A DNA stretch of 64,000 bases from assembly GCF_019175385.1 (NCBI RefSeq), contig NC_083348.1, positions 44,538,950-44,602,949 on the forward strand. Direction: 5' to 3'. Under the pieces are notes generated by a model. That model was not told the DNA's origin and did not search any database. It was given only the letters and a program-made list of their open reading frames with translations. The translations under genes were made by a program, and so were the position numbers. The DNA comes from Lycium barbarum. Taxonomy: Eukaryota; Streptophyta; Magnoliopsida; Solanales; Solanaceae. The number at the start of each line of letters is the position of its first letter. The first letter of the stretch is position 1. Positions 4,182 through 62,093 of this stretch are shown piece by piece.

Positions 4182-6661
4182 TGTCACGACCCAACCCCGC
4201 GGGCCATGACTAGTGCCCCAGCTGGACACCCACATGTACCTGTTAGACATAATCAGACTAACACTATAGACAGCATGGGAATCGGCATAGACCCAAAGGT
4301 TCTCAACGTCACATATCAAGATAATATGTCCCCTACGGAGTCTTAACCAATCACAACGAAATCAAATACGCAAGCCGACGAGGTTGCCACTATATATCAT
4401 ATAATACGCAAGCGGACAAGGCTGCCACCACATATCGATACCATATGCAAGCCGGCAAGGCTGCCACAACCAATAGAAACATCAACAACAACTATATAGA
4501 CACAGCTGATCATAATCTATTTACAACCCACACACATGTCTACAGACCTCTAAGAGTACTAACAGTGAAATATGACGGGACAAGGCCCCGTCGTACCCCT
4601 GGACAACCATATATAAATACACCAGAAGATCTGTACCAAAAGTCTAGGCTCCGGAACAACGGAGCTCTCCAAGACAGCTGACTGGAAATCCTAAGTTGGG
4701 GGATCACCGAATCGAGCGTCTGTACCTGCGGGCATGAAACGCAGCCCCCCGAAGAAAGGGGGTCAATACGGAATATGTATTGAGTATATAAAGCATAAGA
4801 ACATCAAGTACAGAAGAATAATGAAAATCAGTCTCAATAATTGAATGCATTTGTGGCTAATATCTGAGAATATCTGCGTAACTCTATATGACTGAAAATG
4901 ACTCTACGGCGTATGGCATAGATCATAATATAACTGATAGTGCTGTGGAACGTACAACCCGATCCATATATAATATAATAGTGCCGAGGAACGTACGACC
5001 CGATCCATATATAATCTAATAGTGTCGAGGAACGTACATCCCGATCGATATATAATATAATAGTGCCGAGGAACGTCCGACCTGATCCATATATAATATA
5101 ATAGTGCCGAGGAACGTATGGCCCGATCCATATATAATATAATAGTGCCGAGTTACGTACGGCCCGATCCATATATAATATAATATATATAAATGCATGT
5201 AAAACTCGGAAAAAAGGATACTCTGAACCCCTCTGGTGACATAAGAAGCTAATATGAAATGTCTCTGGGAGTTATGGACATAAAACATAGGAGGCCAACG
5301 ATACAAATATCTCTACACTCTCTAAGAATAGAGTCTTTGGAACTCGCTTGCTCACTGTGTTCATTCAGATGATAAGGATCATGCCAAAAAGAAAGAAAGG
5401 ATAACTTTACATAACTGTTAAAGGTTAATTGTAATCATGTTCGCTTCGTCGCCCCTTTAGCCTATTTAATATGAAAGTAACGCTATCGTTAGTAAAATAT
5501 ACCTCCTAGCTCATAAATCTGTAACCAATCGCCTATAGGACTCATTCTTTAATTCTTACTTTATTGGTTAGGGTTTTCATTAGTTAAGAACTTAACGGAA
5601 ATCGGGCAGCATTTCCCCTATATACTTGCCTAACCCGAACTTCCAATTAACCTCCTGTTATCACAGCAATACCAACAATGACAGTAATAGAAATCTGCAT
5701 ATAAAACCCTTACAATTCAACTCATAAACAACTCAAACAATCCAACAGCCCTTCTTAACCCATTTCCAATCTAAATCATTAACGTTTTAAGATTTTTCAC
5801 CATACAAACCAACATATGCTTTGTACACAATACGTTATACACTTCTTTCTTCCAAATTTAGAATCCACATCAACGACAACACGATCACAACACGAATAAC
5901 AACATATGAACATAAATCATACTTTTAATCCTTTTAACCGACAATTTCATATAACAACAATTTCATGCAATTTCTTACTTCCAATTTCACCCAATCCAAT
6001 TTTAATCCTTCCATTACAACACCATTAATACAATTACGCCACAAAATAAGAAAATCTTACCTTAATTTACTCGGAGGAATTTCTACACTTATTTGCTCCA
6101 ATTTCACAATTTCTTCTTCCACAATTCAATATCCAATGTTGCTATCACCTCCTTGAACTTGTAAATCACTTGGAATTTGATCAAAGTAGGCAACAAAAAA
6201 TTTTTTTCTTAATCACCAAGGCTGGCCGAGAGCTTGGCAGCCATGGAAGTGTTCTTTTTTTTTTTTAAGTTTTATTTTGTGAAATGGAATTAATTTGCTA
6301 AGTTGTTCATCCAACTTTATATATATATGGTATCCCTCAAATGGACACGTTCCACCCCCTATGACTCATCAATTTTGATTTCTTGATTTGTTATTTTTTT
6401 TATTTATGGGTGGGGCCCACAAGCATAATTAAATTAATTAACTTTAATTAATCACTAATTCTTACTTAATAATCTAATTATAATTAATTAGTCCCTAATC
6501 TCCAATAATATTTCTACACTAAATAAAATTTATAAACAATTTGTGTACTAATTAAAATTTGAGAATTAAAAGTTCCTATTTAATATCCAAAAATAATCCC
6601 GTCTTAACGTAAGTCGATTAGCTTGCGAATAATTCGATGTATAAAAATACGGGATATAACA
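4182..6661 (-). mobile_element. 5' LTR of element A
   Basis: 2480-bp LTR on the minus strand, from TGTTATATCCCG (6661) to GGGTCGTGACA (4182), followed by a primer site. Signals in order on its strand: TATA-like ATATATATAAAG near 6320, predicted donor AAG|GTAAGA (exon end 6061), the GGGGAAATGCTGCC motif (5599-5618), acceptor TTACAG|A (5519), a 104-nt exon (5415-5518), a decayed donor CAG|TTATGT (5414), branch point TATTGAC (4762-4768) and acceptor CCCGCAG|GT (4726). No TSD can be checked because the 3' end is outside the window. Confidence 0.88.
4940..5185 (-). repeat. Minisatellite, 6 x 41 bp (copy 2)
   Basis: Same array as 1481-1726, in its native LTR. It lies between the predicted second donor (5414) and branch point (4762), so inside predicted intron 2. 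Confidence 0.95.
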
Positions 6662-11148: not shown

Positions 11149-11440
11149 GATGACAGGGGCTGACGCTATGACCTTTGTTGTGTGTATATATGGCACAGTT
11201 GTCAGGGGGTGCCGCTGTGGACTTGTTGTAATGTATATGTATGGCACAGTTGATAGGGGTGACGTTGTGTCCTTGTTGTGATGTATATGTATGGCACAGT
11301 TGACAGGGGGTGACGCTGTGGGCTTTGTTGTGATGTATATGTATGGCACAGTTGACAGGGGGTGACGCTGTGGCCTTTGTTGTGATGTGTATATATATGG
11401 CACAGTTGACAGGGGGTGACACTGTGGCCTTTGTTGTGAT
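11149..11440 (+). repeat. Minisatellite, about 6 x 52 bp (H 5' LTR)
   Basis: About six units of roughly 52 bp with the core GGCACAGTTGACAGGGGGTG, the first one partial. The same repeat occurs in the matching LTR at 19508-19960 with nine units, so copy number differs between the two LTRs of one element. Confidence 0.92.
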
Positions 11441-12036
11441 ATTTCTATAGATATATGTGTTTCTTTGATATAGTTGTACTGATGCATTTATTTTGCCCAT
11501 TCATTGACCTGTCCAGGGTTTTATGTATAAGTTGATTTCAGGCCTTGCATACTCAGTGCACTATTCGTACTGACCCCTTTTCTTCGGGGGCTACGTTTCA
11601 TGCCCGCAGGTGCAGACGCTCTGCTTGGTTATCCTCCGGCTTAGGATTTCTGCCTAGCTGCTTGGAGAGCTCCATTGTTCCGGAGCTTGAGCTATTTTGG
11701 TATAGATTTTATTTTACATAGACTTTGTTGTACTCTTAGAAGTCTGTAGACATGTGTTGGTTGTATATATATGGTTTAGTCAGCTATACAGATGTAGCTC
11801 ATTTTGGATATTCTCATGTATAGTGGCAGCATTGTCGGCTAGCGTATTTGGTTATGTTTGGTTTACCGTGACTCCTCAGAAGGCAGGTCCATCATGATAT
11901 ATGGCATTTTGAGTCTACAACATGCTTCTACAGATTTCCACATTGTCATTAGTATCAATCCGACTATCCCTAACAGTTTCATATACGAGTGTCCAACTCG
12001 AGCACTAGTCATGGCCTATCGGTTTGGGTCGTGACA
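11149..12036 (+). mobile_element. 5' LTR of element H, 5'-truncated
   Basis: The 3' portion of a plus-oriented LTR ending GGGTCGTGACA at 12036, directly followed by a primer site. It carries a minisatellite, branch point TACTGAC (11568-11574), a CCCC/GGGG hairpin and acceptor CCCGCAG|GT (CAG ends 11609), then the predicted last leader exon. Its upstream part, with the TATA box and earlier splice signals, is gone. The partner LTR is at 19101-20564. Confidence 0.88.
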
Positions 12037-12194: not shown

Positions 12195-12239
12195 TGTTAT
12201 CAGGATAATCCCCTCTAACAAAGTGTGGTGTTTTCAGCT

Positions 12240-16301: not shown

Positions 16302-19100
16302 TGTCACGACCCAACCACGTGGGCCGTGACTAGTGCCCGAGCTGGACACCCATACACACCTACTCACCAATCGACATATCCATAACTTATTCATATCCAA
16401 CATATATTAGTTTATATAGATACTGAGACAACCGTCGTCTTAAGCGGTCACCTGTAACATACATATCATACATATAGAAGCCGCCAAGGCTGTCATAGAA
16501 CATATTGTCCAAGACATATACATAAGTACATACACATACAGGCCGTTAAGGCTGTCATAGCAAATAGAACCGCTTAGACGCATACCGCACACACATAACT
16601 GAACCATAACAACCCATGACCCACATACATGTCTACAGGCCTCTAACAAAGATAACAGAATCATATGACGAGACAGGGCCCCGCCGTACCCCTGAATATA
16701 TACATACATCTCCAAAGCAGCAGAATAGATAGCCTAAGCTGTCGGGTCACTCCCGTGAATGTCTGTACCTGCGGACATGAAACGCATCCCCCGAAGAAGA
16801 GGGGGTCAGTACGAAAAATGTACCGAGTATGTAAGGCATAAAATACAACCGGAAAGATCATAACTGAAATAGAGGTTCCGGGAGTCAAGTATCATAATAA
16901 GGAAACCGTTGTACCTGTGTAGTACGGAACAGAATCAAACATTTTCATATCACATACCGTACCCGGCCCATTATGGGACTCGGTGAATGAAATCATGTCA
17001 TTATGTCACCATGAATACATGTATACATATACCGTACCCGACCCTCTAATGGGGGACTCGGTGAACAAAGTCATGCATATCAACATTATATATCATATAT
17101 ATACCGTACCCGGCCCTCTAGTGAGGGACTCGGTAAGTGAAGTCATATCATCATATCAGTATGTCATCATATCATCATGCATATACACGTATACATACCG
17201 TACCCGGCCCTCTAGTGAGGGACTCGGTGAATCAAATCATCATATGCCCTCCTGGCCACCATAACATATCATCATCTCATCACATCATCATATGCATATA
17301 CCGTACCCGACCCTCTATCGAGGGACTCAGTGAACAATGCAGTAGAGTGCGCACGATAACATACCCGGCCCGAGACTCGGTGAATAGACATATTGAGGCT
17401 TGCACGAACAGAGTCGTGAGAAACTATATGCATATAAATCAAGAATCAATAAATAAGTATACTTACCGACATCTGAGGGCTCAGAATCAAGTTTCGGGTC
17501 AATCCGACTTAGTATGAGAAAGTTATGAGTGTTTGAAGTACAGAACCTTCTACGAATGTTTCAGAAGCCATTTTTGGAAAATCGAAGCAACAATCATATC
17601 AAGTATCTTTCGGATATCGTATGGATCAAATCAAATATAGCTTTTAGAATCATATGTACATATCAAAGTGTATCAAAGACTTAACGGAATAATCAGACGT
17701 GCTATCATTTGAAAATCAAGACATAAGCCATATCACCTATCTCTCGAATGCCAATTCGGAAACATATCAAGTAGATCTTCGGACAACATAGATACACAAC
17801 AAAATCATATGAAACAGCTTATGGAAATCAAGGATATTAGTCATCCTAGTGGCTCTAAGAATAGGAATTTCTTTGCAATCATACATAGACGTTATTCGTT
17901 CGTTCCATAAAGATCAGGCCAAAGGAAAGAAAGGGTAAGCCTTACATACCTTGCCCGCTTTCTACGCTAATCCGAACTTAAGTCTTTGGCTTCGCAAGAT
18001 CTACAACAACATTCGTATATACCAAACATTAGCCACAAACACTTAAGAGTCCAATTCTAAACCAATACTTAATCTACAGAAATTTCGGCAGCATTTCCCC
18101 TGTAAATACGACAACCCCGAGAATTCAACTCGGCCAAACATACAACAACAAATCTGAGAATTCAACTCGGCCAATTTACCAACATCAATACCAACAGTCA
18201 TTCTAACAATATCAACACTCAATTCAACACGCATTCCGACATTAGCAACTTCTTTCTACAACTTGACGGCGTTTCACTTATGTTCAATTCACAATTGATC
18301 ACATTTTCAAGTATTAATCCGAAACCATTCAAACAATATTCAATAACACTTCAAAAATCCGCTTGACATTCCAAACGGCCAAACCAACATACTACCCGAA
18401 ACCTTTCAAATTCAACAAGAACAACAACAATACATTGTCTTCTTCCAAATTCATGAACTATACCAACAATTCACATGCTAGCAACATTGTTTTCCATGAA
18501 TACAAGAAATAATATTATAGTCACATTGGCTTCCATAATCATTCTCCAACACTTACAACTTCAAACTAGAATCATCAAACTTTCATTATCAACATAGAAT
18601 CCACAACAACAACAACTAAAACACTAAATAAAATAATTGAATCATTGTTCCTACACACCACACATATACACGGCGACAACCTAGGTTCCATGTTTTCATG
18701 AATTTCATCCACTTTTACATACTACAACATACATAATCATCCATACCATATAAAAAAAGATTAATTTTTACCTTTTCCACTTATCTTCCTTCTTGGCTAA
18801 AGTTGCTCCTTGCAAGGATAGATGTTTTTCTTGCTCCAATAATTACGTCACTTTGCTAGGGACCTTCCAATTAGTAGAAAATAATTTTTGAACAATTTGT
18901 TTTCCTAAGGTTCTTGTTTGGGAAGCTATGGCCGAATATGGCCCTTGCTCTTTCTCCTCCTCCAAGTTTCTTGAACTTTCTAAAGAGTGAAGATGACTAA
19001 TATGACTAACAAGTCATCTTCCATATGGGCCTTGGCCCATTTGTTGTGGACGGCCAAATGGCCCCTTTAATTTCCAAGCCCACTTTTTTTTTTGGTCTTG
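16302..19100 (-). mobile_element. LTR J, minus-oriented, truncated
   Basis: Starts at plus-strand TGTCACGACCC, inserted into H integrase. Reading its own strand: donor AAG|GTAAAA (exon end 18772), GGGGAAATGCTGCC motif (18080-18100), acceptor TTGTAG|A (18001), 51-nt exon (17950-18000), donor CAAG|GTATGT (17949), branch point TACTGAC (16805-16811) and acceptor TGCAG|GT (16769). About 200 bp of its U3 end, judged against LTR F, are missing where it fuses to LTR K near 19100. TSD not recoverable. Confidence 0.82.
16953..17390 (-). repeat. Six dispersed hairpin repeats in LTR J
   Basis: Six imperfect copies of a CCGTACCCGGCCCTCTAG plus GAGGGACTCGGTG core, spaced about 35-100 bp apart and separated by ATCATC-rich filler. 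Each core can pair CCCTC with GAGGG. The array lies in predicted intron 2. Related cores occur in M (38508-38820) and G. It resembles a CRISPR array only superficially. Confidence 0.85.
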
Positions 19101-20564
19101 CAATTCCATGATTTCTATGGTATGATTCCATAAGCGTTTCCATAACCTCCTTGATTTCACAAGCTAGAGGTTTATGACTCTTAAAGCTTCTTATGATGTA
19201 AAAAATGAGAATGTTTTTATGAGGATTACGTTGGGGATGATTTTATGCTTAAAGGCCTCAAGTATGATTTCAATGATGATAGGAAAATGTTAAGCTATTT
19301 CATGATTTTCTCGATTTGTTTCATTGCTGTTGATCTCACCTTATAAATTTTTCCTCCAAGGTGGGATAGATCGATAGTTTTTATTTGAATTCCTATGCAT
19401 GCCATGAGTATAATATATGTATATGGCTATTTTATGACATTACAGAGTTCTATTATTTCATTTTGATTATGCACTACACTCATTTTAATTCTTCATGCAC
19501 ATATAAGGCACAGTTGATAGGGGGTGACGCTGTGACCTTTGTTGTATATATAAGGCACAGTTGACAGGGGGTGACGATGTGACCTTTGTTGTGTGTATAT
19601 ATGGCACAGTTGACAGGGGGTGACGCTGTGGCTTTGTTGTGATGTATATGTATGGCACAGTTGATAGGGGGTGACGCTGTGGCCTTGTTGTTATGTATAT
19701 GTATGGCACAGTTGACAGAGGGTGACGTTGTGGCCTTGTTGTGATGTATATGTATGGCATAGTTGACAGGGGGTGACGCTATGGGATATTTTGTGATGTA
19801 TATGTATGGCACAGTTGACCGGAGGTGACGTTGTGGCCTTTGTTGTGATGTGTATATGTATGGCACACTTGACAGGGGTGACACTGTGGCCTTTGTTGTA
19901 ATGTGTACATATATGGAACAGTTGACAGGGGGTGACGCTGTGGCCTTTATTGTGATATTTCTATAGATATATGTGTTTCTTTGATATAGCTGTACTGATG
20001 CATTTATTTTGCCCATTCATTGACCTGTCTCAAATGTCTTCCAGGGTTTTATGTATATGTTGATTTCATGCCTTACATACTCAATACACTATTCATACTG
20101 ACCGCCTTTCTTCGGGGGCTGCATTTCCTGCTCGCAGGTACATACGCTCAGCTTGGTTATCCTCCGGCTTAGGATTTCTGCCTAGCTCTTTGGAGAGCTC
20201 CATTGTTCCGGAGCTTGAGCTATTTTGGTATAGATTTTTTTTTACATAGATATTTTTATACTCTTAGAGGTCTGTAGACATGTGTGGGTGTTATATATAT
20301 AGTTTAGTCAGCTATACAGATGTAGTTCATTTTGGTTATTCTCATGTATAGTGGCAGCCTTGTCGACTTGCGCATTTTGTTATGTTTGGTTAACCGTGCC
20401 TCCTCAGGAGACAGGTCCATTATGATATATTGCATTTTGAGTCTACATCATTCTTCTACAGATTTCCACATTGTCATTAGTATCAATCCGATTATCCCTA
20501 ATAGGTTCGTATACGAGTGTCCAACTCGAGCACTAGTCATGGCCCATCGGTTCTGGTCGTGACA
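19101..20564 (+). mobile_element. LTR K, 3' LTR remnant of element H
   Basis: Plus-oriented LTR ending TCTGGTCGTGACA at 20564. It shares the 52-bp minisatellite and flanking sequence with the H 5' LTR (11149-12036). It begins inside predicted intron 2, just after the conserved CATGATTTC-type block, so U3, TATA box and the first two exons are missing. Branch point TACTGAC (20096-20102) and acceptor CTCGCAG|GT (CAG ends 20137) are kept. Together with J it marks a deletion that removed the rest of H. Confidence 0.82.
19508..19960 (+). repeat. Minisatellite, 9 x about 51 bp (LTR K)
   Basis: Nine units with the same core as 11149-11440. Units vary by 1-6 bp in length in their TATATGTAT tails. The reading frames it produces are repeat artefacts. 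Confidence 0.93.
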
Positions 20565-22298
20565 CGGTGTTATCATCATTAGCCCGCGACCGGGCCTCCC
20601 GCGTCGAGGGTAATCATCTCACGCCGCCCACTAGTGGTGTCTGCCCGTGTCACATAGGCACGGTGTTATTATCATTATCTATAAGCCGCCCACCGTAGTG
20701 GTGTCTGCCCGGCCAACTAGGCCCGGTGTAATCATACATATACATATATATAAAGCATGCATGAGAGCCCAAATAAAAGCTATAACTCTATTGGAGTGCT
20801 GTAAGGTCAATGATCTCCGATTTATATTATGGAACAATCATCATCGCTATATCTGACCCTGAAGGAACAAGTATCATATGGTGAGATCAACAACAATGAA
20901 TAAAATCCAGGAAATCATGAAATAAGCTCAATAATCTCATAATAGCATCAAGACCGTAAACTTTGGAATCTCTAGGGATGGAATTATCATCATCATCATT
21001 ATAATCATGGAACAGACTTATCTTTAGCATTACAAGAAACTCTATGGCTCATGAACTTCTAATTTTTGGGAATAAGAATGTTATGGAAAACATATGTAGG
21101 ATCATTAGAAAGGAATCATGCCTTTAGAAAGAAAGAGACTAGCCTTAACATACCTTTTCGGTCGCATTAACTTTAACTACTTAACGCTTGTCCTCCCTAG
21201 CTCGTAAATCTACATTCAAGAGAGTTCATACCACTATTAGACTTATCGTCATATGCTTATCTTAAGTCTTCAAATTAATTCCTTTTAAAATCTGCCGAAA
21301 TTCGGGCAGCATCTCCCCCGTTTATATCCCTAGCCCGAAATCACAATACCAACAAAACAACAATATAGCAATACTAATATCAACAACATCATCATCAACA
21401 CCAATATCCTCCATAAAACATCCCACGCGATGTTTTTCCCAATTTCTCAACCAACGATAAAAATATCCACAATACCATAATCAAAGAATTATAATCAATT
21501 TAATCCAAAATCTCCTTTCAAATTCATTCCATAGTCATCATCTTCACTTTAATACTTTGCAACTTCTCTACTATGATTTTCTTCTTTTATAGGACTCGCT
21601 AAACCTTCAAATCAACTTAATCATGAGAAATAGGATGGAGAACATACCTTACACTAGAAGAAATTCACCCCACTCAACTTCTTCCACGACCAAATTCATC
21701 ACAACATTAAGTAGAGACAAGAACAATCTTTATCGATGAATTAGCTTGGGGTTTTGAAGTTTGATCCTCTTTTTTGATGGTATAGAATGTTTTGGAATGG
21801 TGGAGAACCTTCAAGAACACTCTTATAATGGAGAGAGAAGTGTGTGAGATTCTAGAGAGGTATGGAGATGTTAGGAGATTTCTAGAGAGTTGTGGAGTTG
21901 AAGAAAAATGAATACAATGAAGTGTAGAGGCCCTTTTATAGGTGCTAAATTCGGATTGGGCTGGGTCACCACATAAGTGGGCTTTTAAGGGAGCTTCCCT
22001 CTAAAGTTGACACAAAATTCTGTGCATAATTCTGCCAACTTTTTCCAAATTTTTGACAAACTTATTTTCTTCGATTCGCTTGGTCCCAAAATCTTCTGAA
22101 ACTCTCCATACATGATATTTATCATTAATCATACTTGATAATGGTCATGTCCTTCCTGGTTACAACATACGAGATCATAATTCATCCTTTACTTCATTGT
22201 TACGCACTTGCCATGGCTTGTACCTTTCAAAACTTCATGGGATGTCTCTGATACTCCATTAATATGGTGAACTACGTAGCATGCTTATGCTCTGAAAG
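20565..22298 (-). mobile_element. LTR L, larger fragment
   Basis: Minus-oriented LTR related to C and D, cut on the left by K and on the right by the insertion of element C. It continues at 43315-43328. Own-strand signals: donor AAG|GTATGT (exon end 21657), CTGCCCGAATTTCGGCAG-type motif (21298-21319), acceptor AATGTAG|A (21210), 56-nt exon (21154-21209) and donor AAAG|GTATGT (21153). The left end contains CGGTGT and GTCTGCCCG cores like those in the C LTR. Its terminal 3' part is missing. Confidence 0.75.
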
Positions 22299-22624: not shown

Positions 22625-22785
22625 CGGAAAAAAGGTGAGTTATACGGCCACTTATACAGTCCATATAAGGGACCGAATAACTTTTCTAGAGAAAGGTCCT
22701 CCACTGGAAGTATTATACACTCCCTTATACGGATCATATAAGTTATACGAACCGTATTAGTGTCCGTATAAAACTCGACGGGCAG
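22625..22785 (+). promoter_or_regulatory. Cluster of ATACGG palindromes upstream of TATA (C 5' LTR)
   Basis: Repeated CGTATA/TATACG half-sites in both orientations, several arranged as palindromes, within about 150 bp upstream of the TATA box. The 3' LTR has the same cluster at 29365-29500 with different detail. Candidate promoter-proximal protein binding sites or DNA hairpins; no factor is assigned. Confidence 0.45.
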
Positions 22786-22796
22786 CTTTTAAATTT

Positions 22797-22803
22797 TATA
22801 TAA
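22797..22803 (+). promoter_or_regulatory. TATA box (C 5' LTR)
   Basis: TATATAAGG in an otherwise plain TTTTATATAAGGAGG context, kept in the 3' LTR at 29526-29532. Transcription would start about 30 nt downstream, placing all predicted splice sites inside the transcript. Confidence 0.6.
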
Positions 22804-23049
22804 GGAGGACCCAAGTTTTTATTTTTTATTTCACTCATTCTCCACACTTCAACAGAGCTCTAGAATATTCCATATACCATACCAACACATATCCAAGAGA
22901 AAGCAAAGATTAAGCACCAAGAATCAAGAGAATCAAGTGTGTGGATGCTCACTAGGGTTGATACAAGTCCAGAATTTCTTTAGTATTGAAGTTGGGGTTT
23001 TTATCAAGTGGAGTATCTTCATCCAAAGATCATTCCTACACAATCAAAG

Positions 23050-23515
23050 GTGATTTTTACATATATTTCATGTTATTACAAGTATTGAGTGGTTGAAAGA
23101 CTTGGATTAGAGAAGAAAGTAGAATATGGAGCTCAATTATGGAAATAATGGGATTTTGAATAGTAAATTAATATGAGTCATGATTCTTAGTATGAGATGA
23201 GTATAACATCATTATGAATGATGCTAGTGACATTGAGGAAGTATCATGTGAAGAACTAATATTGTGTTGTATTGTACTCATAATTATGGATGATTTGAAG
23301 GTGAATTTGATAAGCGAACAGTATTTAACTTGAGAAATATATTGTTCGTGATATTATGAGTGTCATTATTGATGTTTGGGAGTTGTTATATTATATGGAG
23401 GAAGTTGTTGAAACAATGAAAATGCTGCCCAATTTTCATTAGCTCTTAGTCACCTTAGCTTAGCCTTAAGCATGTTTCTAACGATGTAATGTAGTACGAA
23501 TTCTCTTGAATGTAG
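23050..23515 (+). other. Predicted leader intron 1 (C 5' LTR)
   Basis: 466 nt from AAAG|GTGATT to TCTTGAATGTAG|A. The same boundaries recur at 29779-30244 in the 3' LTR with donor GTGAGT. It contains the conserved ATGCTGCCCAA motif. Prediction only; no transcript evidence available here. Confidence 0.5.
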
Positions 23516-23563
23516 AGTTGTGAGCCTGAAAGGAGAACGCCTAGTCGTTAAAGAGGCATAAAG

Positions 23564-24327
23564 GTATGTGAGGCTAGTCCGCTTCTTTCAAAGGCATGAC
23601 TTCTATATTATGATTTCTTTTCTATATTTCCATGACCTTCTTACATCCTAAAAGATGAAAGTTAAAGATTCTTAAGAGCTTCTTATGAGATAGAGATGAG
23701 ATATGTTCCATGATAATGATGCTATGATGATCTTGATAATCTTATCTTTATGCTTTCATTGATGTTACTTCGTGTTGTTATCTCACCTCATGATATTAGT
23801 TTCTTCAAGGTGACACATAGTGATGATGATTATTCCATAACGTAATCAGAGGTTCCCGACCTTACGACACTCCGATAGAGTTACAGTTTTTACTTGAGCT
23901 CCCATGCATGCTTTAGATTGTGTATATGTAAGATTACACCATGCCTAATTGGTCGGGTAGTCACGACTACGACAGGCGTAGTGGGAAGCTATGATGATAA
24001 TTACACCGTGCCTAATTAGCCGGGCAGACACCACAAGTGGACAGCTTGAGATGTCTACCCCGGATGCGGGAGGTCCGGATGCGAGCTAATGATGATTACA
24101 CCATACCTATATGGACAGGCAGTTTATATATGTATACGTGATATGAGGTTGTTTATTATGAAAGTTAGCATGCATGATTCTGCCCGAAGAGGCAATCAGT
24201 TATAGGTTATCTCTTCATCTCATGTTCTCTTACTTCTTTATTATGTTGACATACATGCCTTACATACTCAGTACATTGGTCATACTGACGTCCTTTTCTT
24301 TTATGGACGTTGTGTTCATGCCCACAG
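23564..24327 (+). other. Predicted leader intron 2 (C 5' LTR)
   Basis: 764 nt from AAAG|GTATGT to CCCACAG|GT, with branch-point consensus TACTGAC whose A lies 39 nt before the acceptor, and a pyrimidine-rich stretch between. An ACGTCC/GGACGT stem sits between branch point and acceptor. Prediction based on consensus and on conservation in the other LTRs. Confidence 0.55.
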
Positions 24328-24615
24328 GTAGGTAGGGAGACGGTACAGACGCTTAGGAGCTTACTCAGCAGATTTGTAGGAGCAGCCCACTACTCCGGAG
24401 GTGCAACCTATTGGTATATTCTTTTGTGTATATATTTGGGGGCATGGCGGTGTCCTGTCCCGTCCTCATGATCTCAGTACTCTAGTTAGAGGCTCGTAGA
24501 TACTTATGTGTGGGTAGCACATGTTATGAGACTTCTTCAGTGTATATTTTGTGCATCATTTTGTAGCCTCGTAGGCATATGCACAGGTTTCTGAATCTAA
24601 AGTAAGAAAATATGA

Positions 24616-25940: not shown

Positions 25941-26760
25941 GATGTGTTGCCGGACACCGAGCCCATATCTATTCCTCCTTATAGAATGGCTCCTGCAGAA
26001 TTGAAAGAGTTAAAGGCACAACTGAACGATTTGCTCGAGAAGGGATTTATTAGACCAGTTCATCGCCATGGGGAGCACATGTCTTGTTTGTAAGAAAGAA
26101 AGATGGCTCCCTACGAATGTGAATTGACTATAGACAGTTGAACAAGGTGACGATTAAAAATAAATATCTTCTTCCGAGAATCGACGATTTGTTTGATCAA
26201 TTACAAGATGCTAAGTGGTTTTCAAATATTGACTTGAGATCGGGATATCATCAAGGGAGTGTTAGAGAAAAAGATAATCCGAAGACGGCTTTCAGAACCA
26301 GATATGGTCATTATGAATTTTGGGTTATCTCATTTGGCTTGACTAACACTCCGGTAGTGTTTATGAATTTGATGAATAATGTATTCAGGACTTTTCTAGA
26401 TCTATTTGTGATCATGTTTATCAATGATATTCTAGTATATTATCGGTCAGAAATGGAGCATGCAGATCATTTGCGTATTGTCATTGGAATTCTTCGGACT
26501 CGAGAATTATATGCAAAAATTTTCAAAATATGATTTCTGGTTGAATTCTGTGACTTTTCTTGGCCAAATTATCTCAGTTGACGACATTCGAGTGGATACT
26601 CAGAAAATTGAAGCCGTGAAGACTTGGCCAAGGCCTACAATGCCTAAAGAGGTCCGTAGCTTTCTGGGATTAGCAGGTTACTATAGAAGATTCGTAGAAA
26701 GATTTTCTTCTATTTCAGCACCATTGACGGAGCTAACTTAGAAATTAGCAAAATTTCAGT
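25941..26760 (+). pseudogene. pol: Reverse transcriptase of element C
   Basis: Starts around [15 protein letters not shown] frameshift near 26075 breaks the fingers; then [40 protein letters not shown]. The catalytic box reads FINDILVY (codons 26417-26428): the first of the paired Asp residues is Asn, which should abolish polymerisation. A second frameshift follows at about 26525, then the thumb [10 protein letters not shown] and [11 protein letters not shown]. Confidence 0.93.
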
Positions 26761-27225
26761 GGATCAATGCTAGTGAGCGTAGCTTCCAGGAATTGAAATA
26801 TAGATTGACTTCAGCCCCAGTCCTGACACTTCCAGAAAGATCAAAAGTTTATGTTGTTTATTATGATGCCTCCGGTGTTGGGTTGGGCTGTGTGTTGATG
26901 CAACACAGTAAATTCATTACCTATGCTTCCAGGCAGTTGCGGAAACATGTGAAGAATTACCCGACCCATGACCTCGAACTAGCTACGGTTATTTATGCAC
27001 TGAAGAAATGGAGACATTATTTATATGGCGTTCACGTTGATATTTACACAGATCATAAGAGTCTCCAATATATATTCAAGCAGAACGAGTTGAATTTGCG
27101 ACAGAGGCAATGGCTAGAGCTATTGAACGACTATGATGTGAGTATCTTATATCATCCTGGGAAGGCAAATGTGGTGGCTGACACTCTTAGCTGTAAATCT
27201 ATGGGCAGCTTATGTGTTGTTCAGT
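26761..27225 (+). pseudogene. pol: RNase H of element C
   Basis: Mostly open stretch with [45 protein letters not shown] and [13 protein letters not shown], covering the acidic residues of the Ty3/gypsy RNase H. A TAG at 26740 separates it from RT, and another stop ends it at 27227. Confidence 0.9.
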
Positions 27226-28610: not shown

Positions 28611-28618
28611 TTACATAG

Positions 28619-29028: not shown

Positions 29029-30311
29029 TGTTACACCTCGAACATTTCGGGTTGTCGTGCGGTGAATAGACTAATGCAAGTTAAGTCGTACGCGATGTCC
29101 CTAAAAGTAGGAAGGGATACTTAACGATTCAAATTAAGATTCCAAGGACATTTGAGGCAAGCGAAGAAGGTTCGTCGAAGAAAGTAAAGTATAAGTTGTG
29201 TTCAGAAGGGTTTTGTAACAACCGAGCTAATGTTGATTTAGCAATGTCTTGAGGAAAGGTTATAAGGCTCCTTAGATGGTTGATGAAGTATTATACAAGT
29301 GCCAAGAAGGTTCCACGAGGATTGGAAGTCAACCGAATCAACGAGTACAATTCCGGAAAAAAGGTGAGTTATACAACCACTTATACGATTCGTATAACTT
29401 ATACGATCTGTATAAGGCACCGTATACCCTGTCCAGAGAAAGTTCCTCCACTGTAAGTATTATACGATCACTTATATGGACCATATAAGTGTCCGTATAA
29501 AACCCAACGGGCAGCTTTTAAATTTTATATAAGGAGGACACAAGTTCTTATTTTTCATTTCACTAATTCTCCACACTTCAAGAGAGCTATAGAATATTCC
29601 ATATACCATACCAACACATATCCAACAGAAAGCAAAGATTAAGCACCAAGAATCAAGAGAATTAAGTGTGTGGGTGCTCACTAGGGTTGATACATGTCAA
29701 GAATTTCTTTAGTATTGAAGTTGGGGTTTTTCTCAAGTGGAATATCTTCATCCAAAGATCATTCCTACACAATCAAAGGTGAGTTTTTCATCTATTTCAT
29801 GTTATTACAAGTATTGAGTGGTTGAAAGACTTGGATTAGAGAAGAAAGTAGAATATGGAGCCCAATTATGGAAATAATGGTATTTTGAATAGTAAATTAA
29901 TTTGAGTCATGATTCTTAGTATGAGATGTGTATAATATCATTATGAATGATGCTAGTGACATTGAGGAATTATTATGTGAAGAACGAATATGGTGTTGTA
30001 TTGTACTCATAGTTATGGATGATTTGAAGGTGAATTTGACAAGCGAACAATATTTAACTTGAGAAATCTGTTGTTTATGATATTATGCGTGTCGCTATTG
30101 ATGTTTGGGAGTTGTTATATTATATGGAGGAAGCTGTTGAAACAAAGGAAATGATGCCCAATTTTCATTAGCTCTTAGTCGTCGTAGCTTAGCCTTAATC
30201 ATGTTCCTAACTATCTAATGTAGTACGAATTCTCTTGAATGTAGAGTTATGAGCTTGGATGGAAAACGCCTAGTCTTTAAAGAGGCATAAAGGTATGAAA
30301 GGCTAGTCCCC
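29029..30311 (+). mobile_element. 3' LTR of element C, first part
   Basis: TGTTACACCTCG start, palindrome cluster (29365-29500), TATA box (29526-29532), donor AAAG|GTGAGT (exon end 29778), acceptor AATGTAG|A (30244), 48-nt exon (30245-30292), donor AAAG|GTATGA (last consensus base lost). Interrupted at the tcccc target site by element B; continues at 42117. Confidence 0.9.
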
Positions 30312-31764: not shown

Positions 31765-31817
31765 ACTAGCGATAGCAAGCTTGGACAGTTAAGCGTAGCT
31801 AATAGGATGTGGAGCAG

Positions 31818-36386: not shown

Positions 36387-37716
36387 GGCCACTTTATTGA
36401 TCAATTTAATTTAGTATGTTGGAGAGAAAGAAAAAAGAAAAGAGAGAGAGGGGGTGTTCAGCCATGGTGGCCAAACATGAGCTATGGGGAGTGATCAATG
36501 AATAATTATTTCCCTCTAGTATTTCCACCAAATGGAAGGTCCTCATTAACATGAAGGAGTTGTTGGAGCAAGCCAATCATTTATTGGAGTGATTTACAAA
36601 CCCTAGCTAAGCTAAGAGGTTAGATGAAGAAGGTAGGTGCTCAATCTTCTTTTCATGTGTTATAGATGATTCTGAGTGTCGAAGTATGTGGAAATGGATG
36701 AAATTCATGAAATATGTATATGTATGGTGTTGGCCGAATAAGAGGGGTGTTGGTAATATGTGATGAATTAATTTTATTTGGTAGTTTGATTGTTGTGTTG
36801 TGGATTCCATGATGTAAAATGAAGGTTTGGTAGCTTGAAATGAACTTGAAATTGTTTGTGCATTATTGAAGAAGTTAATGTGACGTTAGTGTGGTTTCTT
36901 ATAGTTGTAAGAATAAATTTGATAATGTATGGGTTGTGAATATAATTCATGAATTTGGAAATGAGACATGTGTTGGAAGATTGTAAGTTGGGTTGTTGTG
37001 ATTGAATTTGAAACAAAGAAATAGGTTGTTATTGTTCTTGTTGAATTTGGAAGGTGTCGGGTGAAGTAGTATGTTGAGTGAGTCGTTTTGAATGTTATGT
37101 GAATTGAATTGAATATAAATGAAATGTCGTTGAAATGTATGACAAAGGTTGTTAATGTTAGAATGCGTCTGGAATTGATTGTTGATGTTGTGGGCACGAT
37201 TGTTGGTATTGTTGTTGATAGTTTGGCCGAGTTAAATTCTCGGATTTTTGATTGATACTTTGGGCCGAGTTAGATTCTCGGGGATGGTATATTTATAGGG
37301 GAGATGCTGCCGAAATTTCGGCAGATCATAAGTGAATTTATTTGAAGGATTAAGACAAGTATATGATGTTGAGTCTAATGATTTTGTCAATCTTCTTGAA
37401 TGTAGACTAGCAATAGCGAGCTTGGACAATTAAGCGTAGCTAATGAGACGTGGAGCAGGTATGTTAAGGCTCGTCCCTTACTTTCAAAAGCATGATTCCG
37501 ATGTTATGGCTTCATAAATGTTTCCATATCTTCCTTATTTCCAAAAGTTAGACTTTTATGATTTCAAGGCATGATTTCTTTTCCCGATAACCCGTAAATG
37601 TTTTCCAAAGTGTCCATATTTTTCCAAAATAGAGGTTTATGATTTTGTAAGCTCTTATGGAAACAACGATGGATATGTTTTACAATGACAATGATGATGT
37701 CAAGGATGAGAATACG
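35946..37716 (+). mobile_element. 3' LTR of element B, first part
   Basis: TGTTGTAGCCCG start. Donor AAG|GTAGGT (exon end 36632), (TA)n at about 36350-36378, acceptor AATGTAG|A (37405), 53-nt exon (37406-37458), donor GCAG|GTATGT. Interrupted at the atacg target by solo LTR M. Sequence is close to the 5' LTR by eye. Confidence 0.9.
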
Positions 37717-45808: not shown

Positions 45809-48182
45809 CATACATTATATATATACAGACGCCGCATACGGCTCTCCCATATCCCGCGTCCGGGCATCCCGCGTCCAGGATGGAATCCAGCTGAATCAGG
45901 TAGTAATATAACAGTGGCCCTTCCCCTTTCCCCATATACATATACATGTACATTTACTTCTCTCTTATACATACACATGCCCCATATACAAGTACTTACC
46001 TTATATATATACAAACCCATACACATCTACTTGTAGCACATAACTAGCATGCACGGGAGTCAAAGGAAAGTTACGCCCATCGGAGTGATGTAAAGTCGGT
46101 AGCCTCCGATTACATTATGGAGTACTTGTGATCACTTTGTCTCACCTTGAAGGGACGAGTATTTTAAGGCGAGACTATCAACGGAGAGTAGTATTACAGT
46201 AACCGTAGAATGAAATCGTGGGCATCATAGATGACAGTCATAGGCTTTGGAGTCTTAGAAAATAAAGTTATAGCTAGGGAATATAAATACGATTCAAAAT
46301 TTGCTTATCAATTTCATATTCACATTGGACCCTTAGCTTAAAAATCTTAGTCGTAGAATCGTTCCGGTCGTACTTGTCATAGCTACATTCTCTTGTCTAA
46401 CATTGTCAATATCATTATCCCCATAGAAACATTCTCGTTAGAGTAGTTATAGTACTTATCATTCGGTAATGAGGTCGGGATCAAAAGTCCCCCTTGGATT
46501 TACTTCAAGTAAGTCGACCAAGGCTATAGGAAAATCCGAGAGTAACGGGCCCACCTCGGGCCGGATGAGGTAGCGTGTACTAGTTGCATATGTTACATGT
46601 CGTGTGATTACTTGTGAGGGTTCTAGGGTAATAGGGTCCCATTTATGCAAGTTATAGGGGTCTAGGAGGTTTGTTCCGACCATTGGCACACTTTCTAGTT
46701 CAATTTTATTGAACAGACGGTAGAAAACTTTAGGTGCGGATTCTGGGGAACAGAGTTGTCCCCGAGGCTCGTACCCAACTTATTTCTGCTAAGACATGCC
46801 ATAGAAAGAAGGTGAAGCCTTACATACCTCTTCCGCTCCTTTTTGCTATTCCAAATTCACGTCGCAATCTCGTCAAAATCTGCAATTTGGTCATAGTTAC
46901 CAAAACTCTTATTAGCATACTTAGAGTTAGAATCTTAAGGAAACACTTGGCTACCGAAATTTCGGCAGCATTTCCTCTGTACATACACCATCCTCAACAT
47001 TCAACATAGCCAAATTCTCAACCAACACAATCCGGGAATTCAAACCCGGCCAAACTATTAACATAATCAACAATCGCACTAGCAATTCACATATTTCATC
47101 CAAGATGCATGATTTCAATTTATTACTTTCTTCAAACCTTCCGACTTCAATGAACACGATAACAACCTTATAGTATATATTCCAACGACATCATATCAAT
47201 ATCATTACATACTATCCATGCAAGAACATTATTCTTCAATATACATAATCTTCCAATTACCAATAATTTACCAAACTTATCAAGTCTTTACTTGCAATAT
47301 GCAATCTACAACACAACAACTAAAACACTAAATATAACTTGCTCATTATTCTTCAACAATTCAACACATATACATGACTACATATGCCATATACACGGCT
47401 CCAACATGCATACACCACTACAATCTCTCCAAACTCATTCAACTTCCATTTTCCACATATCATTCACAACAATAACAACCAAACATTAATTAAAATAATT
47501 GAAGCATGACTCCTACACATATATATATATACACGGCCATATACTATATTCCTCTCCTTCATGAATTTCATTCATTTTAGCATACTACAACACATATAAA
47601 CCATGTATAACACATAAAACAAGATTGAAATTCACCTTTCTTCTTCAACTCCTCACTTGCCTATCTCTTGGCAACTTGTATGATTTTGAATCTTTCTTGC
47701 TCCAACAACAACTCTACCTTGATAAGCACCCTTTTCTTGGTAGGAAATGATTTTTAAGAGAATTTTTATCAAATTTCCTTGGAATTTCTACTCTTGGCCG
47801 AAAGGCCTCCAAGGTTTTCTCCTTCTTTTCTTTCTTTGGTTTTCTTGAAGTTTCTAGACAACTATGTGATAAAGATGACTTAGTCATCTATTTAATTCAC
47901 ACAATACAATTCACTTTGGGCCTAGCCCATAAGCATGGCCGGTTGGGCCTCTCTTTTACTTAAAAAAAATATTTCAAGCCCACTTTGTATTCTTGCCTAG
48001 TTCTAATAATTTATGAAACATTTTTCCAACTTCCAAATTTGCCCTTCGTCTTTCTCCATATTTTCACTTCTAGACTTTTCATAGGCAACTCATGTGCCAA
48101 ACAAAATAAAATGTGGCCTTGCTTGTCGTCTTCCCGCGATTGTCTTGAATTATTCGATTGCACGAAAATGCGGGATATAACA
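44996..48182 (-). mobile_element. Solo LTR F
   Basis: 3187-bp minus-oriented LTR, plus-strand TGTCACGACCC to GGGATATAACA, with exact TSD ggtgg (44991-44995 and 48183-48187). Own-strand signals: donor AAAG|GTGAAT (47635), CGAAATTTCGGCAG-type motif (46957-46976), acceptor AATTGCAG|A (46880), 52-nt exon (46828-46879), donor AGAG|GTATGT (46827), branch point TACTGAC (45437-45443), acceptor GCGCAG|GT (45400). An (AT)n run lies at 45780-45808. Confidence 0.93.
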
Positions 48183-48743
48183 GGTGGATTTCGCTAAATG
48201 AAGATAAATGACAATAGTTGATATGATATTGTGAGTGTCGTTGTGGATGTTTGGGAGCTGAAATAGAAAATGGAAAGGTAGTAGAAACAGAGGAAACGCT
48301 GCCCAATGTTCTCTAAGAACTAACGATGCGTTCTTATAGTCGCTTCACTAACGAATTCTCTCATGAAGGTAGCAATGCAACATTGAAGAAGGACAAGTGG
48401 ACGATAGCATAACTAAACGACAAAGGTATGTGAGGCTAGTCCTTCCCTTCTATGGCATGAATCTTATAGCATGCTTTCCTTTCTCTTTCATGAATTTCTC
48501 AAATTCCGGAAAGCCTATGACCCTATTTTGCTACACAAGGAAATGAGTTAGAATACGTAAATGCTAGATGTTCACGATATGACATTTCCAAGGTATTAAT
48601 GAATGCTCTAGTGTGAGGCTTATCTCTTCGTTCCAAAGAAAGCATGAATCCTTTAAGTTTCCATAATCCTCCCACAAGATGAAGCTCACGAGTCTTCCAA
48701 TATAATGTAGCGCCTAAGAGTACGAAAACGATGGTAATGAGCT
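48183..48743 (+). mobile_element. Solo LTR E, middle part
   Basis: Continues E: GGAAACGCTGCCC motif (48292), acceptor GAAGGTAG|C (48372), 53-nt exon (48373-48425), donor AAAG|GTATGT. Interrupted by element G at gagct (48739-48743). Confidence 0.85.
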
Positions 48744-51700
48744 TGTCACGACCCAGCCCCGTGGGCCGCGACCGGTGCCCTACTTGGGCACCCAAACGGA
48801 CATACAAACTAAATCATCATTTTTAAACAGAGTTGAGAACGAATATTATCTTGCGCGATTGCGCGTACAAAACATTATATCAGAATCAGAAGAGGCAGCG
48901 GAATATACATCGCCGAACATATGCACATATATCAAAAAGCCGGCAAGGCTATCAAATATGTCAAAAGCCGACAAGGCTGTCAAATGGCACAACGGCCCAA
49001 AACGCATATACAAATGCACGCCGACAAGGCTGCCACAAACATATACAAAATGCACGCCGACGAGGCTGCCATAACGAATAGAGTCATGCAAACACATCCG
49101 TACAGAAGTAGGCACACACACCCACAAATACGTCTACAGACCTCTAAACAGACAAACCGAATCATATGGCGGGACAGGGCCCCGCCGTGCCCCTGAACAA
49201 ATACATATATACATAGCGAACGAATATATACCAAAATGTGTGCTCTGAAATGAGAAGAGCACTCCAAACAGCAGAAGAGGGTGTCCTAAATGGGTAGATC
49301 ACCAAACTGTGCGTCTGTACCTGCGGGCATGAAACGCAGCCCCCGAAGAAAGGGGGTCAGTACGAAATATGTACTGAGTATGCAAAGCAGAATATACAGA
49401 AAGCAAATCTGAGACATAAACGAAATGGAAGTACCAAACATAAGTGCAAATCCAACATATCAAAATTTGCTTACTTTCAAAAATATGTAAGTAATGCATA
49501 GGGTACAGAAGAATATGGTCGCCCACCCGTCGATGGAGCCATAACACAGCATAACACCAGAAAGTTTCAAATCTCCGTATCCCCGTCACATATCACATCA
49601 CAACATAACGCCATTCACAGCATAACACCAAATATAGGTGGAACCCGACCCTCTTTTGCGAGTAGCTCGGTGAACCATAAACACAGCATAACTCCGGAGT
49701 ATATCAAAATGCGCACGACAACAGAACCGGCCCGGGACTCGGCGAAAGGAATAACAGAATGCACGAGTAGAGTCGTGAGTAGTCATATGCATAAAATCAT
49801 TATCATAAATTCAAACATAAGCAAAATGATCATATTTGAAATCGGAATAATAATCATACCAAATTCTTTCAAAGATTCTCTGAATTACATAAAGGAAAGT
49901 CGCGGGACCCACGGACGGGTATTTACCCAAGTCGGGCTCGCCTATGGAAAACATACGTATCATACATAATGCAAACTTTTATAAAAATATTGGAGCAATC
50001 CGAGCATTTATGTGAAATGTATGGCATTCAGAAATTTCGAAGTTCTTTAAAGTGAAACCTTTTTGCGCAAAGTTCGGAAAGCGATTATTTCAAATACATA
50101 AAGGTTCATATTTCTTCAAATCATACATAAGAGTGCCAAGGAACATATATAGATCATATCATGCTCGGATTTCGGATTTGGAATTTCCTTAAGGCTCTAA
50201 TCTAGCCTATGTAAAACTAAGACATGCCAAAAAGAAGGGAGGTTGCTTTACATACCTCGTACGCACTCCAAGATGGCCAATCTAAAGTAAATTCCAATAT
50301 ATGCCTCGGGCTCCCCAAGGTCTACAAATATGCCAACGAATATCCAATATTAAACATAGGCACTTAAGCCATTTATTCCAACTAACATTAAATTCTACAG
50401 AAAATTTGGCAGCATTTCCCCTGTAAATAGGCCATCCCAAGAATTTAACTCGCTCAAAATCAACAACAACAACCACAATAACCAACCTAGCAACATCGAT
50501 AATCAATTCGAAAGGCAAAATAATAATAGTAGCTCTCTTTTACACCATTCGACAACTTTCCAATTATTCAATTCAATGGCTTACTTTCAAGCCACAATAT
50601 CGTTCGTACATTCGATTATTAACCCAAACTCATTCTAACAACATTCGAGAACATTCTAAACAATTCACATAATTTTTCCAACAATCCACAATTTCTCCAA
50701 ATTTTTGGCCGAAAACAGCCCCTACCCGTGAGCAGCCCACTGGGCACACTTCCGACTTTCAATTCATGTTTTGTATCACAATTCACAATATAACGATACC
50801 ATTTTCATAAAATATACAAATTACATCAACGCACAATAACCCTCAAATCAGCCCGTACAATCTCAACATCAATCTTAAGTCATTAAATGCTCAATTCCAA
50901 ACTAGAATTCGTAACGGCGACACGAAAGCGCTTAAGCGATAATAATGCGATATTCGGCATAATCTATGACTCACATTCGTTCACACTACACATATTCATA
51001 TGTTAATGGTTCTCATATATAAGGATTGCATTAAATGCACAAAGTTCTCCAAATCAGTCCGCAACGCTTACTATATCAATTCGGGACATTTAACTCTCAT
51101 TTCCAACATACAAATCATCACAACAACCATTACGACGCTAAGTGATATTAATTCATTCTTTGCTACCATTTGGAGGCTATATACACGGCTACACTACACA
51201 TATACATGTATCGATGATTTTTATTCTCTTCTCCACTCTACGACAATCAATATGCTACAAGCAATTAATTCATCAACCCAATACCACACCACACACATAT
51301 ACTTCACACGGTCAACACACCCAACACAAGACCCAACTTCAACATTTCATATTTCATGATTTTTATCCATTTTAGCATACTACAATATGCATACAACATT
51401 TATAACTCCAAAAACAAGATTAGAACTCACCTTTATTCTCCAATCCACCAATAGTCTAGGGTTTGCAAATGGGCAAAATGAGTGGTTGAATGACCCAAAC
51501 AATACTTCCACGCTACTTAGGGACCTCTAAATAGTGGGTTTATACCAAAGAAATAATTTTAGAGAGGCAAAAATGGGACTTGATTTTTCTTGGTTGTGGC
51601 CGAGAACCATGGGGGAGTGGAGGCTCTCCAAGTCTTGTTATTTTTCTTTAAGTGTAGAAGTGGGAAATGAGAAAATGACTTAGTCTTCTTTTTTTTAAGT

Positions 51701-52015
51701 ATCCACAAATATCTCCCTTTGTTTATGGCCCACGCATGTGTTGGACCAATTAAAATTGGCCACAAAATGTGTGGGACCATTTCAAGTCCACACGGCCACC
51801 ATGGCTTTTGGTGCAAGATTTTTAAATTCCAATTTTATGAATTGTGGTCCCAATTTTTCCTAACTGTCCAATGCCCTCAATTTCATATTCAACTTATGTC
51901 TCAAAATAAAATCAAATTGTCAAAAGTCCCGACTTCAAATCCCGGAATAGTCTTGGCCCTTAATTGTCATAGTTAATCCGGGTTGTCCCAATGTATAAAA
52001 ATACGGGACGTAACA
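48744..52015 (-). mobile_element. 3' LTR of element G
   Basis: Plus-strand TGTCACGACCC to GGGACGTAACA. Own-strand splice signals: donor AAAG|GTGAGT (exon end 51431), acceptor TTTGTAG|A (50322), 66-nt exon (50256-50321), donor CGAG|GTATGT (50255), branch point TACTGAC (49356-49362), acceptor CCCGCAG|GT (49321). Confidence 0.93.
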
Positions 52016-52051
52016 TCCTCTCCCCCTTAGGAACATTCGTCCTCGAATGTT
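52016..52051 (-). other. Polypurine tract and hairpin (G)
   Basis: On the minus strand: perfect inverted repeat AACATTCG-AGGA-CGAATGTT (52032-52051), then purine tract AAGGGGGAGAGGA (52016-52028) touching the LTR. Best preserved of the three copies. Confidence 0.82.
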
Positions 52052-52149
52052 GGATTAATGCTACTAATCTTACTCAAATTCGGGGGAGTTTCTTTTATAG
52101 CCATCATATACAAATCGATCACAAATCAACATAATCAAACAAAGAATTT

Positions 52150-55734: not shown

Positions 55735-55735
55735 T

Positions 55736-55791: not shown

Positions 55792-55794
<3 letters not shown>

Positions 55795-56536
55795 CTTTTT
55801 GAGTCGTAAGCGAATCATTCAATTCCCAACTGCCTGTTATACATTTAGTATTCTTCAAATGAATCGAAACTTAATCGTTGGACATTTTTGCCTTTCACAT
55901 AAGCTTTTCTGAAGCAACATGTGGTTGGAACATATTCTAATTCATTTAGATAAATTACGAATTTGCTACTCATATATGCTTTCTCGGAATAAAATTTCCC
56001 AATCAAGGATAACGCTTCTTACGAATGCCATGGAGGGTACCTCTTAACTTTAATCCAACATAACAGATTCACCCTATCGGTATCGACTTTCAAAACATGT
56101 TAAGAACTTATATCTCATTTTCTCTCTTTATATTTCTGGCAAAATTTGGGCAGAGGTTCCTCTGTATTTCTTACTATCCCAAAACCTGTACACAGGAAAT
56201 ACCAACCATGCCTCACAGGGCCAACACATATACGTATTTATATATCATATCGTAGCCACACAGGGCTAACAATTGCAAACAAAAGTACACAGATGTCGAG
56301 ACTTACCTCACGTGCCCAACTCAAACGGCACCGGTGACATCTTCCTGTTTATTTTTCTTTTCAATCTTCAACTTTATATTTCCGTCATACTTCAAATAGC
56401 TTCCCCGACATACATCTTTCACACCATTTCTTACCTGTGTACGGTATAGCTTCCAATATCATCGGTCACTTTCTTACGTCGATACCGTCCTCAGCTGAAA
56501 TTAAAGGTTAGCAGAAAAAGATTCATTTCCTACGCT

Positions 56537-58204: not shown

Positions 58205-58270
58205 CTCGTACGCACTCCAAGATGGCCAATCTAAAGTAAATTCCAATCTACGCCTCGGGCTCCCCAAGGT

Positions 58271-62038: not shown

Positions 62039-62093
62039 AAACGTGAGCATTGAAGGAGAACAACCAAGCGATGGAAATTGTTAAACGAAAGAG

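Follow-up and report, generated by a model that had tools for sequence, protein, structure and literature searches.

Elements and LTR architecture in the window

The elements studied here lie in a window of 64,000 nucleotides of Lycium barbarum DNA (the whole stretch analysed) and are Ty3/gypsy LTR retrotransposons. Element C contains the domains RVT_1 (26123-26530), RNase H (26742-27224), Integrase_H2C2 (27265-27672) and SH3_Tf2-1 (28355-28615), with reverse transcriptase and RNase H ahead of integrase, the order that marks the Ty3/gypsy superfamily. A chromodomain was not found in the nine pieces scanned, SH3_Tf2-1 being present; the lineage may be Tekay (Del) chromovirus. Self-comparison shows that the region 22299-43153 is deeply nested: B, itself interrupted, sits within the 3' LTR of C and splits it. 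At about 48202-63805, E appears to be split by G. Tandem units of about 41 nt and about 52 nt are present in LTR-like stretches (1396-1808 and 4855-5267; 11146-11467 and 19495-19956), and the U3 part just 5' of the TATA box (22640-22790, also in locus L071) carries repeated TATACGG/CCGTATAA palindromes.

A sequence-only reading of the window had predicted two introns inside the LTR leader, common to all element families. The features concerned are as follows (C1 and C2 are the two LTRs of C; B1 and B2, and G1 and G2, are named likewise).

22797..22803, + strand: TATA box of C (read from sequence; a start about 30 nt downstream is an assumption)
22830..23049, + strand: predicted exon 1 of C, 5' end approximate, last letters AAAG (low exon-1 ATG density in 28 related loci)
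23050..23515, + strand: predicted intron 1 of C (absent from an element on contig C5 and from locus L057)
23516..23563, + strand: predicted exon 2 of C1 (flanking letters read)
23564..24327, + strand: predicted intron 2 of C1 (exactly absent from both LTRs of the contig C5 element)
23564..23574, + strand: 5' arm of the intron-2 helix of C1, donor included (covariation, 62 loci)
24257..24267, + strand: 3' arm of the intron-2 helix of C1, just 5' of the branch point (covariation, 62 loci)
24283..24289, + strand: branch point TACTGAC of C1 (motif match)
24289..24327, + strand: hairpins of C1 between branch point and acceptor (single-sequence fold; acceptor CAG unpaired in C1)
24328..24415, + strand: predicted exon 3 of C, 3' end approximate (ATG profile of relatives)
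30245..30292, + strand: predicted exon 2 of C2 (flanking letters read)
31765..31817, + strand: predicted exon 2 of B1 (flanking letters read)
37406..37458, + strand: predicted exon 2 of B2 (flanking letters read)
62039..62093, + strand: predicted exon 2 of D (flanking letters; donor 1 AAG|GTAAGT at 61585)
48373..48425, + strand: predicted exon 2 of E (flanking letters read)
58205..58270, - strand: predicted exon 2 of G1 (flanking letters read)
50256..50321, - strand: predicted exon 2 of G2 (flanking letters read)
17950..18000, - strand: predicted exon 2 of J (flanking letters; the same exon abuts exon 1 in L057)
46828..46879, - strand: predicted exon 2 of F (flanking letters read)
21154..21209, - strand: predicted exon 2 of L (flanking letters read)
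5415..5518, - strand: predicted exon 2 of A, donor TT instead of GT (flanking letters read)

Splice signals in the LTRs

Read on their own strand, the exon-2 intervals bear out the predicted boundaries: AG precedes all 12, and GT follows 11 (A has AG|TTATGT; the donor of C2 is GTATGA). The predicted branch point TACTGAC followed by CAGGT is matched exactly at ten places in the window, including C1, D, E, G1, G2, J and F, though it is not universal: B1 reads TACTGAA, A reads TATTGAC, and C2 has lost the AG of its acceptor (CACCGGT). For donor 1 the result is mixed. Nine of the 12 cases offer a candidate AG|GTR in the 1 kb before exon 2, and none was found for E, G1 and G2, while the literal AAG|GTRAGT that had been claimed stands at the expected site only in C2 and D; the donor of C1 has decayed to GTGATT (its partner LTR C2 has GTGAGT at 29779). 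Acceptor 1 may in some families be TGAAG|GTA, 4 nt upstream of the site first proposed. Individual families miss individual sites, which qualifies the statement that almost every sufficiently long LTR shows all the signals. The sequence between the signals had been thought beyond easy alignment; around the signals, however, families can be aligned and share extended conserved blocks (GTATGTNAGGC, GCCTTACATACTCAGTAC).

Beyond the window we searched the genome (1.67 Gb, 164 contigs; one genome, with the fetched loci nearly all from one contig). This genome contains 7,574 exact matches to the exon-2 architecture, against 0 for the reversed control. Forty-five loci were picked with a pattern that itself fixes much of the donor block (exon-2-sampled loci). 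A second sample was selected by the PBS, without splice signals: the PBS pattern occurs at 24,239 places, and ten loci were taken as every fourth, from the 1st to the 37th, among the 100 matches listed, all on contig C1. All ten contain the block of branch point and acceptor 2, with the pre-branch-point block 445-580 nt upstream of the PBS, and nine contain donor 2 (L057 included; it was not found within 3.6 kb in L058). Counted from the initial T of TACTGAC, exon 3 follows after 42-44 nt in these loci, slightly more than the 35-39 nt claimed before because the counting point differs.

The comparison with shuffled LTRs that had been suggested turned out in favour of the signals. Among 17 LTRs, a relaxed five-signal expression, in which the first signal is loose, finds 10 on the sense strand (5 of 7 from the window and 5 of 10 PBS-sampled) and none on the antisense strand; of 3,400 dinucleotide-shuffled sequences it matches 9. 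With a stricter expression, 3 of 9 LTRs match in sense and none in antisense, nor does any of 2,700 shuffles. Two motifs sought in the viral_contigs collection for other species gave 0 stretches.

Such conservation could also arise if the signals were DNA, promoter or RNA-packaging motifs that merely resemble splice sites, with no splicing at all. The conserved blocks indeed reach beyond the splice-site consensus, and the families are related, so that common motifs need not mean splicing. We nevertheless regard this explanation as very improbable, given genomic copies in two families that lack the intervals at the predicted sites (it is contradicted by these unless coincident deletions made them) and an ATG depletion that switches at the predicted boundaries.

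Intron-less genomic copies

A genome search for fusions of exon 2 to exon 3 returned 18 places, of which one is exact (the contig C5 element) and one ambiguous (L076). The other 16 were set aside on the printed letters alone; in most of them the acceptor-2 stretch precedes GTAG. In the C5 element, exon 1 ends in ATCTAAG and is followed by GTAAAGACGTG (exon 2) and exon 3; beyond these come the end of the LTR, the PBS and the gag stretch. The downstream partner LTR lacks the same introns 1 and 2. The two LTRs (1,318 and 1,310 nt) are 92.0% identical over 1,355 aligned columns. The target duplication ACTTT is found at both ends, a PPT purine tract precedes the 3' LTR and the PBS has one change, so that LTR pair, PBS, PPT and target-site duplication, the hallmarks of an LTR retrotransposon, are all present. 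At a rate of about 7e-9 per site per year the LTR divergence corresponds to about 6 million years.

Allowing up to 3 mismatches, the C5 junction occurs at four places in the genome, namely the C5 pair and a second pair 112-124 kb away. We rejected the latter as a separate insertion: since the target duplication is shared and the upstream flanks agree at 96.6% over 322 nt, it is a segmental duplicate. The intron-less element thus sits inside a segmental duplication with copies about 112-124 kb apart (G000:C5:67633600-67761800, L071-L074). The intron-1 junction of the C5 element is 4 nt off the acceptor first claimed; a 4-nt shift of the donor and an acceptor TGAAG|GTAA, as in L052, are both possible.

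A second copy is L057, a PBS-sampled locus of a family distant from that of the C5 element. With blastn, exon 1 of L053 aligns through its last base to position 649 of L057 (70.8% identity with gaps), and exon 2 of J aligns with its first base at position 650 (90.2%). Intron 1 is exactly absent and intron 2 is kept. Only the 5' LTR is known, as a search for the 3' LTR in the fetched stretch (L075) gave only low-complexity matches.

In L076 (G000:C2:42796600-42798400, fusion place C2:42797395) intron 1 and exon 2 are kept and intron 2 is mostly gone; the loss is exact at the acceptor but spares about 16 nt next to the donor. This is ambiguous between an unusual donor and an imprecise deletion, and we excluded it from the spliced copies. 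The independent spliced copies total two. Genome searches for the pattern with intron 2 alone removed and for a G-type fusion of exon 2 to exon 3 each gave 0 places, and for the families and junction types searched spliced copies seem rare.

Both the C5 element and L057 look like DNA copies of spliced RNA. Intron loss by DNA deletion or recombination is the competing account; L076 speaks for it insofar as messy losses do happen (unless an unusual donor was used there), but the C5 element would need two separate losses, each on splice junctions and in both LTRs, and the loss in L057 is exact at both ends. We therefore think it most unlikely. Copies that lack the introns at the predicted splice sites argue that the introns really are spliced, which supports the original proposal of two spliced introns within the LTR common to several families. 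As far as genomic copies can demonstrate it, intron 1 is spliced in at least two families and intron 2 in one, and such RNA has been copied back into DNA. On this evidence it is very likely that introns 1 and 2 are real leader introns and lie within the LTR.

One consequence runs against the sequence-only reading, according to which a spliced RNA could not regenerate the LTR: neither LTR of the C5 element contains the introns. Splicing shortens the LTR rather than blocking its rebuilding. In retroviral-type copying both LTRs receive R-U5 from the 5' end of the RNA, and the two short LTRs of the C5 element fit this scheme. The element kept its PBS stretch because this is needed for copying.

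ATG depletion of the exons

In the exon-2-matched loci the number of ATGs per 100 nt is 0.83 for exon 1, 5.29 for intron 1, 0.62 for exon 2 and 5.77 for intron 2 (30 loci, 28 with donor 1 and 26 with acceptor 2; exon 1 taken as 215 nt); overall, exons 1 and 2 range from 0.4 to 0.8 and introns 1 and 2 from 4 to 6. U makes up 26%, 35%, 18% and 33% in the same order. The PBS sample gives 2 ATGs in 450 nt of exon 2 (9 loci) and 368 in 9,164 nt of intron 2 (9 loci). Past acceptor 2 the density is 2.34 per 100 nt over the first 250 nt. Across 41 loci only 10 ATGs fall within the first 80 nt, and the density climbs from 100 nt on, which is why we place the end of exon 3 there.

Splicing had been expected to strip many upstream ATGs before gag, and by these counts it would strip most of them. 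Unspliced leaders carry 71, 82, 90 and 80 upstream ATGs and the spliced leaders of the same four loci 2, 0, 2 and 1, counted to 200 nt past the PBS in the four of ten PBS-sampled loci with donor 1 placed (in L051 donor 1 was set 3 nt late).

A candidate third intron

A further acceptor was found downstream of the PBS. In 8 of the 10 PBS-sampled loci it lies 197-203 nt past the PBS, and ATGCC or ATGTC begins 2 nt further on; the candidate branch point reads CTAAY, CTGAC or nearly so. The acceptor is missing in L051 and L058. Among the nine exon-2-sampled loci with a PBS, it lies 0-2 nt before ATGCC in six (L031, L032, L036, L044, L045 and L046) and is missing in three (L035, L040 and L043). In the window the following features belong here.

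11610..11699, + strand: predicted exon 3 of the element with its PBS at 12041, followed by the putative donor 3 TTTTG|GTATAG (counted by eye)
12215..12237, + strand: branch point and acceptor 3 (CTAAC..TTTTCAG) of the same element; ATGCC starts 2 nt on
56495..56511, - strand: branch point and acceptor 3 (CTAACCTTTAATTTCAG) of element G; the following ATG has decayed

Judging from its position, the ATG after acceptor 3 would start gag. An acceptor 2 nt before this presumed start in 8 of 10 loci argues for a third leader intron, which probably ends just before the gag ATG and would remove the PBS. Its donor, TTG|GTAY (GC in L053) near exon-3 position 82-96, can be recognised clearly in some families only: it is seen in 7 of 10 PBS-sampled loci and 3 of 26 exon-2-sampled loci, and a search in the D and E families settled on no site. 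ATGs number 4 in 850 nt of exon 3 (10 PBS-sampled loci) and 119 in 4,267 nt of the intron-3 span (8 loci).

The unequal occurrence of donor 3 in the two samples would also be expected if acceptor 3 were used from donor 2 or donor 1, with exon 3 optional, or if intron 3 were limited to certain families. We hold this to be possible but rather doubtful, as ATGs are sparse over the first 80 nt of exon 3 and become denser from 100 nt on, as for an included exon with its end at that point.

From 40 to 160 nt past the PBS, loci L031-L060 share a conserved palindromic stretch, GTTTATGG..GCGCGCCACA..AATAAAC, plus GATCGTGCGAT, which might act as signals for packaging or dimerisation.

RNA structure at intron 2

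Intron 2 opens with 11 nt (GTATGTAAGGC) whose complement, GCCTTACATAC, lies just upstream of the branch point. Both arms were located in 62 of the 67 loci tried (not in L013, L029, L033, L038 and L039). Counting G-U, all 11 positions of this helix pair in 36 of the 62 and ten in another 20. Position +7 is A-U in 30 loci, G-C in 17, G-U in 12 and unpaired in 3; position +9 is G-C in 53, A-U in 5, G-U in 2 and A-C in 2. At position +6 there is U-U in 16 of the 62 loci, and other pairs are broken in B1 and L060. A-U and G-C states bridged by G-U are the trace expected of a helix. The observed pairing is above that of all 5,000 reassignments for the 62 loci. For the 17 loci that were not picked by the exon-2 pattern, 15 of 5,000 reassignments reach the observed pairing and 1 of 5,000 the Watson-Crick pairing, in a kind of test that relatedness inflates. 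On this comparative evidence the sense RNA at intron 2 shows a pairing constraint. Complementarity across intron 1 is not above that of shuffled sequence (4.07 versus 4.92).

Two hairpins lie between the branch point and acceptor 2, with changes on both sides of their stems among 54 distinct sequences (first hairpin: G-C 36 / C-G 7 and U-A 42 / C-G 7; second hairpin: U-A 40 / C-G 10). The acceptor CAG falls inside the second stem in 12 of 17 single-sequence folds, the others being L059, J, C1, D and E. As a rough comparison, the computed energy of the helix is -13 to -18 kcal/mol, against -6.6 for the 9-nt end of U1 on the donor. At about 24390-24480 in C, and from exon 3 onward in L001-L050, there are more conserved stretches that look like hairpins: GAGCACTCC..GGAGGTGC where exon 3 ends, and GACGGGGTCCTGTCCCGTC beyond.

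With the donor in the helix and the acceptor in a stem, recognition by U1 and of the acceptor should be hindered. The same structures might instead promote splicing of the introns: the helix brings the intron ends together over a span of 700-1,700 nt, and the stretch of 42-44 nt between branch point and exon 3 contains the first hairpin. Yeast introns with such helices exist. This is a serious possibility, but we incline against it, since the helix covers the donor GTATGT itself and 12 of 17 folds bury the acceptor CAG in the second stem.

A proposed switch of RNA fate

We propose, with the reserve due to a reading that falls just short of an even chance, that the LTR leader with its three introns is a switch of RNA fate, in which sense-strand structure masks the ends of intron 2 and separates a spliced, uncopyable message from an unspliced genome. 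The leader is a split transcription unit that for the most part falls within the LTR. Downstream of the TATA box, exons 1, 2 and 3 measure about 215, 50 and 90 nt and introns 1 and 2 about 450-780 and 700-1,700 nt; a probable intron 3 would begin after exon 3, cover the end of the LTR, the PBS and the leader beyond it, and stop just before the gag ATG. The spliced RNA would be the gag message, with 0-2 upstream ATGs instead of 71-90, whereas the unspliced RNA, rich in upstream ATGs and hardly translatable, would serve as genome. Structure at donor 2 and acceptor 2 would keep part of the RNA unspliced and so set the ratio. Splicing of intron 3 would remove the PBS, leaving a message that cannot be copied, and occasional leakage (introns 1 and 2 out, PBS kept) would found elements with shortened LTRs. 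We infer from these sequences that two classes of RNA exist.

Retroelements must split one transcript between translation and replication. Introns in the LTR would solve this neatly if the leader can scarcely be translated before it is spliced, and one genome would hold this solution in thousands of copies; the introns would also give a reason for the long LTRs and make the two RNA classes directly testable. Elements with shortened LTRs can arise from spliced RNA, so annotation of LTRs needs care.

Comparison with known systems

The sequence-only reading knew of no description of such introns, and in a literature search for introns within plant LTRs, which subscription papers mostly fell outside, none was recognised. 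The phrase 'intron in the LTR' in PMC5542766 belongs to the name of a lentiviral vector and is no precedent. Plant LTR elements that splice are already known, whereas complete introns within the LTR were not found described in the literature searched. According to the available text of PMC12786077, plant LTR elements are generally without introns. Spliced transcripts are reported for the plant LTR retrotransposons Ogre, EVADE and BARE1 (PMC12786077, PMC3735527, PMC6317226), and separate RNA pools for translation and replication for BARE (among the same sources). As far as the accessible portions of these papers go, the elements studied here resemble Ogre, EVADE and BARE1 in being plant LTR elements with unspliced and spliced RNA, the spliced form being known here from genomic copies, and differ from them in the place of the introns, which lies between coding regions in Ogre and in the gag-protease stretch in EVADE and BARE1 (PMC12786077, PMC3735527, PMC6317226).

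In sunflower, direct RNA reads contain spliced and unspliced isoforms of Tyran and Varan, among them short isoforms with two spliced introns, a likeness to the elements described here; both belong to the Copia superfamily, and the available part of the paper does not place their introns in the LTR (PMC7730604). In that same part, Tekay is absent from the set of expressed elements (PMC7730604).

For a splice site within the LTR itself, we found a parallel in foamy virus. There the LTR contains the major splice donor, placed ahead of the poly(A) signal, and the RNA structure at this donor differs between the 5' and the 3' LTR and controls access of U1, as described in the accessible part of PMC3694450. 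A functional splice donor within the LTR would thus be common to both systems. Unlike foamy virus, as far as that text describes it, the plant elements studied here would have complete introns, with donor, branch point and acceptor, within the LTR (PMC3694450).
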